Source: Butyrivibrio sp. AE3004
GTDB taxonomy: Bacteria; Bacillota; Clostridia; Lachnospirales; Lachnospiraceae
Length of the DNA: 64,000 nucleotides
NCBI RefSeq assembly: GCF_000703165.1
Contig: NZ_JNLQ01000002.1
Coordinates: 2,666,001-2,730,000, forward strand
Direction: 5' to 3'
Part shown: positions 14,508-17,594 of the stretch, piece by piece
Position numbering within the stretch: position 1 is the stretch's first letter
Layout of the letters: each line of letters opens with the position of its first letter
Program-made: the position numbers and the translations under genes
Notes under the pieces: model-generated
The model's input: the letters and a program-made list of their open reading frames with translations, nothing else
Databases searched by the model: none
Told to the model about the DNA's origin: nothing

Positions 14508-16286
14508 ATGCAAAACTTAAGTAAAAAAACAGCAAAAATAAAAAGCGCCATAAACAGTCATATAGCAAGCTGTATCAGACCGGTGCAAAATACTATTACT
14601 GACTTAGGAGAAAAAAAGTTAAACATCGAACTTCCGGACACACAGCGTCCTTTAATGGCGCTTACTTTCCTTCCGGGTTCAGACATATCGGAAGATACTC
14701 TTTTTCGGATAAAATCCCGCCTATCAGGGCTTTTTGATTACAGTTTCATAACCTTTTCCGAAAAAAAGGTTTCTTTTAAAACTGTAAATGAGCGCATTCT
14801 TGAGGCAAAGGCAGATTATATCATTTTTCTTAATAACGTTTACGATATATCTAAGGCCTTTGATAAGATTCTGTTCTCCGTTTATAGTGGAAATGGATCT
14901 GCAGGTGCAGTAGGCGCACGAAGCTATTATTCCAAAAAATCCGGAAGGACAAATTCAGGACTTATAAAACAGCTTGGTCTATGCACTCAAAAACGTTTCG
15001 AAAAAGACGGTATTACACCCTATCTTTTGTTAAAAGAAAACAGAAACCGGAAAATTTTGTGGAGATCAAAAGCCTCAATACTTGAAGAAAGAATACCTTC
15101 TACCGATCTTTTGATGATGCCATTTAAAGAATTTGAAGAACATCATGGATTTTTTGAGATGTATGATACGGAATTTTCTCCCTATGCTCTTAGCGATATT
15201 TGCTTTTTATGTGAAGCAAAAGGATTAAAAAACTATCTAAGTGCCTCCTGCACGGCTTCCGTTTCTTTCAAAACGGAAAAGAAGAAAGATGCGAGGCTAC
15301 TGAACAGAAGGATATTCAGAAGCAGATGGTACAGATATATATCTTCAGAAAAACAGGCTTCTTCTGCTAACCTTGATGCAAACAGCATAGACATCTGCGG
15401 ACCGATGCCCGAAAATGAATCGGCCAAGTTCTGGGGAGATTACCACTATGCCCTTGCCATGAAGAAGTCCTTTGAAAAACAGGGTTTCAAGGTAAATATA
15501 CTTTCAAGGGAACACTGGTATGACTATACGAATTCCAAATATTCCATAGTGCTTCGCGGCACCAGACCTTACTACAGATCAGCAATTGATACCGGCAGGA
15601 TCATGATGTTCTGGGCCATCTCTCACCCCGCTGATATTACTCCGGAGGAGCTAAACCAGGCGGACCATGTATTTTTTGCTTCCGAAAAAATGCAGGAAGT
15701 CTTTGAGCCTAAGATTAAAACAGCCTCTTCTGTCCTTCCTCAATGCACGGATCCGGATGTAATGTTCTGTTCGGGAAGCTGCTCGCTCTCACCCGAGCTT
15801 CTTTTTGTAGGCAACAGCCGACATGTCTATCGAAGAATAATTAAGGATCTCATTCCTACAGAACACGACCTTCAGATATACGGACGTCACTGGGAAGATT
15901 TCCCGGAGGTTCAAAAGCATGTGGTTTCTGACTACATTGCCAACTCCGAGGTTTCGTCCGCTTATCACAACGCGGCAATATTGTTAAATGATCATTGGGA
16001 CGATATGCTGGAATACGGAATAATCTCAAACAGAATCTTCGACGCACTGTGCGCAGGCGCATTTGTAATAAGTGATAATGTTCCCGGCATTCATGAACTC
16101 CTCGGGGATGCAGTAGTTACCTATAATGACCGTGATGATCTGAAAAATAAAGTCGACTACTATCTTTCACATCCCGATGAGCGAAATGCCATTGCCTCCA
16201 TGGCGCAATCACTTGTAAAAGAAAAGCACAGCTTTGATGCACGTATTGCGGAAATAATAAAAGTGATGAGTCAGACGAAAGTCTGA
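14508..16286 (+). CDS. CgeB-like glycosyltransferase with divergent N-terminal GT-A-like domain
   Basis: 592 residues. The C-terminal half (about 290-585) matches CgeB-like GT-B transferases: MMFWAISHPADITPEEL, ADHVFFASEKM, LQIYGRHWEDFP and NRIFDALCAGAFVISDN followed by a glycine-proline-containing acceptor loop. The first 260 residues resemble a decayed GT2 fold (LEAKADYIIFLNNVYDI in place of a normal DXD region) and look catalytically doubtful. The ribosome site is poor (ACGGGT 10 bases upstream), so translation may be modest. It is the only plus-strand gene inside the polysaccharide locus, with its own promoter and terminator. It is predicted cytoplasmic; donor and acceptor are unknown. 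Confidence 0.75.
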   Translation: MQNLSKKTAKIKSAINSHIASCIRPVQNTITDLGEKKLNIELPDTQRPLMALTFLPGSDISEDTLFRIKSRLSGLFDYSFITFSEKKVSFKTVNERILEAKADYIIFLNNVYDISKAFDKILFSVYSGNGSAGAVGARSYYSKKSGRTNSGLIKQLGLCTQKRFEKDGITPYLLLKENRNRKILWRSKASILEERIPSTDLLMMPFKEFEEHHGFFEMYDTEFSPYALSDICFLCEAKGLKNYLSASCTASVSFKTEKKKDARLLNRRIFRSRWYRYISSEKQASSANLDANSIDICGPMPENESAKFWGDYHYALAMKKSFEKQGFKVNILSREHWYDYTNSKYSIVLRGTRPYYRSAIDTGRIMMFWAISHPADITPEELNQADHVFFASEKMQEVFEPKIKTASSVLPQCTDPDVMFCSGSCSLSPELLFVGNSRHVYRRIIKDLIPTEHDLQIYGRHWEDFPEVQKHVVSDYIANSEVSSAYHNAAILLNDHWDDMLEYGIISNRIFDALCAGAFVISDNVPGIHELLGDAVVTYNDRDDLKNKVDYYLSHPDERNAIASMAQSLVKEKHSFDARIAEIIKVMSQTKV

Positions 16287-16300
16287 TTCATCACTTTTTT
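16261..16300 (+). terminator. Rho-independent terminator overlapping the stop codon of the CgeB-like gene
   Basis: AAGTGATGAGTCAGAC and GTCTGATTCATCACTT form a 16-bp stem with one G-U wobble and a GAAA tetraloop, followed by four more T residues. The stop codon TGA lies inside the 3' arm, so the terminator is part of the coding end. Confidence 0.9.
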
Positions 16301-16361: not shown

Positions 16362-16523
16362 CTAGTGTACTGACATGTCCATCTTTAATCAAATTGTGAA
16401 GTATATGGATTTATATGCTAGGATAAAAATCGCAGGCAATGCGGGCATTGGCAAGATTTTTGACAACGCATATAAATTCATAGACAAGCAATTTGGTTAA
16501 TTATGGATGTGTCAGTACACTAG
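16362..16523. repeat. 162-bp MITE-like near-palindrome with 21-bp terminal inverted repeats
   Basis: The ends CTAGTGTACTGACATGTCCAT (16362-16382) and its complement at 16503-16523 match at 19 of 21 positions. Similarity continues inwards on both arms (TTAA.CAAATTG, ATTTATATGC, AAAAATC) to the centre CAATGC-GG-GCATTG at 16437-16450, so the whole element can fold into one long hairpin. It has no coding capacity. Its right end encodes the last six residues and stop of the SDR gene at 16501-17580. The structure fits a non-autonomous transposable element or a palindromic RNA element; flanking T-runs could also make it a bidirectional terminator for the convergent genes. Confidence 0.8.
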
Positions 16524-17580
16524 CCCATCTCAGTATATCAATTGTCCTTGTAAGTCCCTTTTTAATATCATATTCAGCCTTCCAGCCGAGGGTCTTTATC
16601 TTAAAGGAATCAAGCATAGCCTTTGTTGCCTTGGAATAACCGGCAGCCTCTGTCTCATCCGGAAGCTCAAACACCACCTTTTTGCCCGCATATTCAGCTA
16701 CTATCTCCGCCATATCCTTAAGAGTTATGTCAGAGGCCGGATCTGCGATATTGTAGGCCTCTCCGTTCTTTCCAAAAAGGAGACAGTATAAGAGTGCTGA
16801 AACAGCATCGGCTACATAGCTGTAGGAATAAAGCTGATTACCCTTTGACTTAAGGACAATGTCCTCTTTATCCACACCCTTTTTGATAAACTGGGAAATC
16901 GCCTTGGTGTCAGACTTAAGCATTGAAGGGCCATAGGTTCTTGAAAGTCTGGCAATTACTATGTCCATATCCTTCTGCTTGATATATGCCTGGCACAGAG
17001 CCTCTCCTGCACGCTTACTCTCGGGATAACCCGCCCTTAAGGTATTGCAGTCGATATAACCCAGATAATCCTCTGAAAAGCGCTCCGTGTCGCCTTTATT
17101 CTCACCGTAAACTTCAACGGAGGATGCAAAAACAAAACGCTCAGCCTTTTTGCTGTCAGCAAGATCAAGCATATTCTTAAGACCGATAATGTTAGTGATA
17201 ATTGTTCCTATTGGGTCTGTAGAATACTGAAGAGGATGTGTATTACTTGCAAGATGAAGTATATAGTCTGCACTCACCTGCTTAAGCTCATCAGATATAT
17301 CATCGTTTACATCCTGTGCATAAGCCTCAAAGTATTCCGTATCACCGTCTAATCCAAATCTGTTGTAGATTCTCTCTTTACTTCTTCCGAGAGCAACAAC
17401 TTTCGTATTCTTGCCAATATGCTTGTTTCTGTAAAGTAGAGCATCTATCAAAAAGCTTCCTATAAGTCCGGTTGCTCCGGAGAGCATAACTGTTTTTCCG
17501 TCAAGCTTCTCCCAGGGAAGCTCAAGTGTTGCCACCTGCTTTATGTCATCTTTGTAAAGTTCGTTATCTAATAAATTCAT
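16501..17580 (-). CDS. NAD-dependent epimerase/dehydratase (extended SDR)
   Basis: 359 residues from the ATG at 17578-17580, with GAGG 6 bases upstream; ATG or TTG up to 12 bases earlier are possible. The Rossmann motif GATGLIGSF lies near residue 36 and the catalytic YPESK (YxxxK) near 185, with ASSVEVYGE between them; these define the extended SDR family of sugar-nucleotide epimerases and 4,6-dehydratases. It is the last gene of a cassette with an IspD-like cytidylyltransferase and a LicD transferase, so its substrate may be a nucleotide sugar or CDP-alditol used by LicD (inference). The final residues SVLTHP are encoded by the inverted repeat of the adjacent palindromic element, so the native C-terminus was probably replaced or trimmed. 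Confidence 0.85.
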   Translation of the reverse strand: MNLLDNELYKDDIKQVATLELPWEKLDGKTVMLSGATGLIGSFLIDALLYRNKHIGKNTKVVALGRSKERIYNRFGLDGDTEYFEAYAQDVNDDISDELKQVSADYILHLASNTHPLQYSTDPIGTIITNIIGLKNMLDLADSKKAERFVFASSVEVYGENKGDTERFSEDYLGYIDCNTLRAGYPESKRAGEALCQAYIKQKDMDIVIARLSRTYGPSMLKSDTKAISQFIKKGVDKEDIVLKSKGNQLYSYSYVADAVSALLYCLLFGKNGEAYNIADPASDITLKDMAEIVAEYAGKKVVFELPDETEAAGYSKATKAMLDSFKIKTLGWKAEYDIKKGLTRTIDILRWASVLTHP

Positions 17581-17594
17581 TTGCATCCTCAATA

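Follow-up and report, generated by a model that had tools for sequence, protein, structure and literature searches.

A palindromic IS630-type MITE in the tail of a Butyrivibrio SDR gene and its probable place in an order-wide family with a common folding core under differing ends

Between two convergent genes of Butyrivibrio sp. AE3004 lies a 162-bp palindrome that runs into the 3′ end of an SDR gene, which raises the questions of what this element is, how it came to supply the last codons of its neighbor, and whether its interior carries anything beyond the ends by which such elements move. We analyzed the 64,000-nucleotide stretch that contains it (the window) together with related loci from other genomes. 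We are confident that the feature in the window is an IS630-type MITE inserted into the SDR tail. The account as a whole, namely a MITE mobilized by an IS630-type transposase into the SDR tail that belongs to an order-wide palindrome family with differing ends and a selected core fold, we regard as very probable. The features on which the argument rests are as follows.

14508..16286, + strand: convergent gene with a C-terminal glycosyltransferase-like domain (PF13524)
16259..16298, + strand: terminator-like hairpin and T tract of the + strand gene, outside the element (consensus match)
16362..16523, no strand assigned: palindromic MITE of 162 bp with CTAG at each end
16362..16395, + strand: left terminal repeat, 34 bp long and with 91% identity to the left end of the IS630-like element L033:509-1792
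16363..16364, no strand assigned: presumed TA target duplication, left copy, within CTAG
16398..16489, + strand: conserved folding core as matched by covariance model R1 (16396-16491 as matched by R2; both models are described below)
16437..16450, + strand: apical stem-loop CAATG-CGGG-CATTG, whose stem covaries across genera
16492..16523, − strand: right terminal repeat, 32 bp long and with 87.5% identity to the right end of L033:509-1792
16521..16522, no strand assigned: presumed TA target duplication, right copy
16501..17592, − strand: SDR gene (Pfam Epimerase), with its final residues and stop inside the element

Insertion into the tail of the SDR gene

A sequence-only reading of this locus had described a palindrome at 16362-16523 that folds back on its center, and both statements hold: CTAG is found at both ends, the terminal 21-mers agree at 19 of 21 positions, and the center is the stem-loop CAATG-CGGG-CATTG. 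Folded as single-stranded DNA together with 22 bp of flanking sequence at either end, the element reaches −45.4 kcal/mol, where shuffled sequences average −17.0 (z −10.4; 0 of 200 shuffles equally stable), and its predicted RNA fold is strong on either strand (−79.0 kcal/mol for the + strand and −59.9 for the − strand). It is short, lacks a transposase ORF and is bounded by terminal inverted repeats, the features by which a MITE is recognized.

The same reading held that the element encodes the last six residues and the stop of the SDR ORF, which is correct as to the residues read from it (SVLTHP and the stop) and overstated by one as to what is new. Joining the window flanks at one TA gives an SDR tail of ILRWAS-TESYDQ* where ILRWAS-VLTHP* is observed, and since the joined empty site also yields the serine, the new residues are strictly five (VLTHP) plus the stop. 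The palindrome would have entered a CTAG in the 3′ tail of the SDR gene, presumably duplicating TA, and would in this way have changed the last five residues of the protein. VLTHP occurs in 0 of 12 SDR orthologues, which end 5-10 residues past a conserved TID (TLS or TIS in two), compared with 11 residues past this motif in the window protein and 12 in the joined empty site. Because VLTHP is absent from the orthologues and their tails vary, the tail that was replaced was itself non-conserved. The proposal that a native C-terminus was replaced is thus upheld in the replacement and not in the implied constancy of what was lost; comparison of the sequences supports an insertion that altered the C-terminus, and this rewriting of the last codons by a transposon is probably harmless.

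In a relative (G014) the same glycosyltransferase-like and SDR genes converge with 78 bp between them, and the element is missing. Aligned to G014, the joined window sequence spans the junction in 818 columns with 71.6% identity; the alignment is weak in the non-coding part, which is too diverged, so that at base level the TA duplication stays presumed. Elements of this kind lie in gene tails fairly often: across the 43 related elements described below, an ORF of at least 60 codons stops 4-35 bp inside the element at 11 of 86 ends, and survivorship may explain such ORFs. In two 54-bp elements (L035 and L178), a long ORF ends at the TAG of the element, which serves as its stop codon.

It had also been suggested that the element terminates both convergent genes. 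A consensus scan for a G+C-rich hairpin followed by a T tract finds no terminator-like site inside it, and the + strand gene has such a site of its own at 16259-16298; on these grounds a terminator role is not supported. A broader version, in which the convergent pair has come to use the element as a bidirectional terminator or 3′ stabilizer, is in keeping with its position between the two genes and its strong RNA fold on both strands, but is opposed by the outcome of the same scan, by the separate site of the + strand gene and by the retention of the gene pair without the element in G014. We consider it highly improbable.

Copies, terminal repeats and IS630 relatives

The host genome (4.47 Mb, 6 contigs) contains one full copy of the element and, on another contig, one 79-bp copy that keeps both ends and has lost the middle, its 34- and 50-bp pieces being 100% identical to the window copy. 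The search for further host copies that the sequence-only reading proposed therefore has a positive outcome, and the pattern that it named as evidence against itself, a single copy together with orthologues sharing the C-terminus, is contradicted on both counts by the copies and the orthologue tails. An end-pattern search of the host genome returned four exact ends, all from the full and 79-bp copies, and ten further sites with two mismatches, no more than were returned by a reversed control pattern. From C1:285285 onward in the host (L034:1587-1650), the CTAG of the 79-bp copy is followed by sequence that by eye resembles the left end CTAGTGTGGCTGTTTTTATATTTCTCGACTATATTGC of the L262 type (89% over 56 bp).

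Matches were found in 20 of 79 Butyrivibrio genomes, the host included; in this search and in that with the G068 copy described below, no more than 10 candidates in each genome were scored, and copy numbers are lower bounds. The strict end pattern found 27 stretches in a named genome collection, 25 from Butyrivibrio and two on contigs of one 'uncultured Clostridia' MAG, and had no exact match in a viral contig collection searched for viral carriage. The retrieved loci contain 43 distinct paired elements, distributed as one of 51 bp, 19 of 54 bp, three of 79 bp, one of 96 bp, 18 of 159-168 bp and one of 188 bp. Among the 18, L077 differs from the others in its end type, and 17 near-full copies from other Butyrivibrio genomes were aligned.

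The 19 elements of 54 bp are almost terminal repeats alone (L035, L036, L038, L039, L040, L178, L191, L193, L195, L197, L198, L203, L207, L215, L219, L220, L223, L224 and L225). Ten solo 'half' elements of 76-87 bp (L028, L118, L120, L121, L122, L123, L029, L027, L030 and L032) consist of one terminal repeat and the interior to about the center of the palindrome, followed by unrelated DNA; in 8 of the 10, TA lies at most 2 bases from the break, a count made by eye without a chance comparison. These half elements may be mobile through a cryptic inner end or may be products of cleavage at the hairpin tip.

The most direct link to a transposon comes from a sister species (G066), which carries a 1284-bp IS630-family element whose ends are the same as those of the window element. 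The second ORF of this IS scores 131.4 bits against NF033545 (cut-off 100) and the first 41.5, below the cut-off; the transposase of the related IS also matches PF13358. The window element and the IS have 14 identical bases at each end with left/right polarity kept, and terminal repeats and CTAG ends are common to the window element and the IS in L033; unlike the IS630-family insertion sequences, the window element encodes no transposase. A protein search of the host assembly with the related IS630 transposase did not find a cognate enzyme, and its sole match, at 35% identity, is at C2:1279956, outside the window. As a candidate helper, this host protein was rejected, being distant and surrounded by repeats that differ by eye. 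The earlier statement that no transposase lies nearby thus holds for the element's own kind across the whole assembly, and the proposed search for an IS with the same ends succeeded in the sister species and not, as to the enzyme, in the host. The MITE reading is borne out by the copies, the same-ended IS630 element, the CTAG ends and the G014 gene pair without the element; the 162-bp palindrome is a non-autonomous MITE, which would be mobilized in trans by an IS630-family transposase.

The element family prefers CTAG targets. Six near-identical copies in one genome of another genus occupy six different sites, each between CTAGs. At L014 (from the element at 1501-1664 onward), a MITE stands in tandem with an IS copy and one CTAG belongs to both, as if element ends served as fresh targets. 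A single CTAG is likewise common to an IS copy in L077 and a MITE whose ends are of another type: a 164-bp palindrome (L077:267-430) with ends CTAGTGTTTTGTCT lies in the CTAG at the end of the IS630 copy, and ends similar to CTAGTGTTTTGTCT are present on the IS of L059 and L069. A helper IS was also sought in other genera, where a pattern search of four genomes gave ends only, 13 in all. With one transposase as query, tblastn (E ≤ 1e-4) found no IS630 protein in the loci numbered L299 and upward, which come mainly from other genera. This result and the lack of a cognate enzyme in the host count against the account as a whole.

A folding core under differing terminal repeats

A search with the G068 copy matched elements of G045, G043 and G061 in the interior only. 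Twelve measured members of a second Butyrivibrio family are palindromes of 159-161 bp with ends TTAGGAACTGTAGC, and in G045 there are 140 ends of this type at up to one mismatch, compared with 15 for a reversed control pattern. The consensus sequences of the two Butyrivibrio families agree at 68 of 98 interior positions and at 30 of 66 positions in the ends.

Two covariance models, both of which leave out the terminal repeats and include the window copy of the core in their training sets, were used to follow the interior further. R1 represents the interior of about 95 bp alone and was built from 22 Butyrivibrio sequences; R2 is broader and was trained partly on R1 matches. The E-values are rough. 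R1 matches 49 of 397 genomes of the host's family, the host included (46 of 334 genera), and R2 matches 64 of 392 genomes of the host's order (31 of 173 genera, under eight family labels). Over 238 kb comprising the window and Butyrivibrio contigs, all 25 R2 matches at E ≤ 10 fall inside elements. Two further sites were observed in the host genome: a core with poorly matching ends at C2:497140-497237 (L339) and a weaker R1 match at C2:2104431-2104519 (E 4e-4).

We examined the flanks of 65 core matches (49 + 16, a subset of all R1 and R2 matches; 11 of the 49 are in the R1 training set). Flanking inverted repeats exceed the best of 1300 shuffled flanks in 58 of the 65, and in 47 of 54 after the R1 training sequences are removed, and the repeat sequences differ from one match to another. 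The remaining seven of the 65 (L301, L343, L319, L323, L339, L367 and L368) lack clear terminal repeats, which speaks against the account. In 32 of 49 related elements, TA and a matching 14-mer are present on both sides. At least six end types were counted by eye, among them CTAGTGTACTGAC, TTAGGAACTGTAGC, CTAGTACATCGTTTCG, CTAGTACAACGAAAATT, TATTACTCCGGCGG and TAAGGGTTTGTAAAGG, and the newly found R2 match at L262:1702-1800 is bounded by good terminal repeats that represent yet another type.

In these alignments and searches, conservation reaches further in the interior than in the ends, a property beyond what the sequence-only reading could see. The window element would be placed in a family of palindromes of about 160 bp that extends across the host's bacterial family and order, whose members have a common folding core and different terminal repeats; the ends would have been exchanged, each set serving whatever transposase is present.

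Strand asymmetry of the core and competing explanations

In the 18 full Butyrivibrio copies, 96.3% of pairs over 55 arm pairs are standard, and 17 pairs have changed on both sides. None of 500 shuffles reaches either value and slid controls pair at 33-38%, though the observed figures are favored because the structure was derived from the same alignment. The + strand RNA is predicted to be more stable than the − strand in all 18 copies, by 23.6 kcal/mol on average and by 0.3 at the smallest. In an alignment of 49 cores, pairs were picked by Watson-Crick agreement only, a choice that favors neither strand. Its 36 pairs comprise 1492 Watson-Crick, 113 GU, 26 AC and 131 other cells, with at least two Watson-Crick types in 28 of the 36; GU exceeds AC in 17 pair columns and AC exceeds GU in 5, with 14 ties. 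Counted as events on a tree, changes from Watson-Crick to GU number 49.3 and those to AC 19.9 (binomial p 0.0006). With columns as the unit the asymmetry is moderate (p 0.003 for 49 elements and 0.012 for 32, the smaller set dropping 17 of the 49: extra copies of one genome, nine Butyrivibrio copies and the host L339). A simple arm alignment of the 49 cores gives more GU than AC in 33, less in 8 and ties in 8, and the + strand RNA is the more stable in 48 of 49. Unpaired columns of the + strand are purine-rich (1213 of 1605 bases). Mutational strand bias is absent from paired columns (A→G plus C→T 103.6, T→C plus G→A 100.8) and from unpaired columns (44.8 and 55.8, respectively). Covarying stems and an excess of GU over AC without such a bias suggest selection on a strand-specific fold.

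The family might instead be an ordinary MITE family in which old shared ancestry, horizontal transfer and arm-to-arm conversion account for the similarity, with no selected fold. The elements are multicopy and look selfish, palindromes could become homogenized without selection, and in the second Butyrivibrio family a simple arm alignment gives no GU excess (GU 30, AC 48). Conversion predicts equal GU and AC, however, where 113 and 26 cells and 49.3 and 19.9 events are observed; a mutational strand bias is absent; and agreement of the interior at 68 of 98 positions against 30 of 66 in the ends is the opposite of what an end-dependent parasite alone would produce. We think an ordinary family of this kind possible, with considerable doubt. 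Against it stands the reading of the core as a selected, strand-specific fold, of RNA or single-stranded DNA, under changing ends, which is supported but not proven; the fold on the window + strand would have been kept by selection on the folded single strand. The stronger statement that this fold is the lasting unit, surviving across the order by swapping terminal repeats to suit the transposases available, is plausible but falls somewhat short of an even chance. As to function, our leading guess is that the core helps the element to propagate itself, because the core is kept in multicopy elements across families.

Which nucleic acid would be folded is a further choice. The folded + strand may act as single-stranded DNA, as integron attC sites and REP elements do, for example in replication-linked transposition, rather than as RNA. 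G-T is tolerated better than A-C in DNA hairpins too, and the element is mobile DNA. IS630-type DDE transposases act on double-stranded ends, which speaks against this alternative, and we judge it rather unlikely. The flanking genes bear on both forms. Where the flanking genes are co-directional, the minus strand outnumbers the + strand by 31 cases to 12 (p 0.005; ORFs of at least 100 aa by simple calling, 62 of 75 elements), and with this preponderance read-through mRNA would usually carry the less stable strand. Selection on read-through mRNA, also considered, is weakened by this bias, which may reflect the cost of a stable hairpin in mRNA or the direction of replication; a one-sided gene direction reflecting fork direction would suit single-stranded DNA.

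The usual definition of a MITE rests on its ends and treats the interior as expendable. In this family the interior is conserved across genera and families, the ends vary, and the fold bears signs of strand-specific selection. If this is true, the family offers a testable case of a transposon parasite that carries a functional folded nucleic acid, in an element present in many Butyrivibrio relatives and without an Rfam match. At the window itself, it provides a neat small case of a transposon rewriting the final codons of a gene.

Several known elements are similar in kind, as described in the parts of the cited papers drawn on here. RUP, a 107-bp pneumococcal MITE with IS630-Spn1-like ends, has a tightly folded RNA structure with paired terminal repeats, is over-represented between convergent genes, and is found in pneumococcus, less often in S. 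mitis and rarely in other streptococci (PMC3049150). The window family resembles it as a MITE with IS630-type ends, a fold and a convergent-gene setting, a likeness of kind only; unlike RUP, it has one core with at least six end types over an order-wide set. BOX and SPRITE, also of pneumococcus, are likewise small repeats for which an RNA structure is predicted and which share some features of MITEs, but BOX is modular and SPRITE terminator-like, and neither is described there with a common core under exchanged ends (PMC3049150). Rickettsia palindromic elements are palindromes of about 150 bp situated in frame within genes (PMC10969869), as the window element is, except that the latter gives the SDR just a short C-terminal tail and stop. 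MRSC motifs such as MRSC-65-2 resemble the core in having a single long covarying stem and many copies, and are thought to be selfish, with RNA versus DNA undecided (PMC11109978). MRSC-65-2 differs from the core in its UYCCGG repeats, and the 250 such mobile or repeat candidates of PMC11109978 may include the present family; no published description of it appeared among the titles and beginnings of abstracts of the papers listed.

Searches of Rfam gave no match for the window element (E up to 1), nor for the core elements in a set of 12 loci (E up to 5). Adjoining a core element and outside it, L309:1705-1831 has a sub-threshold match to RF01699 (Clostridiales-1 sRNA), at E 0.00019 and 35.9 of 48 bits.
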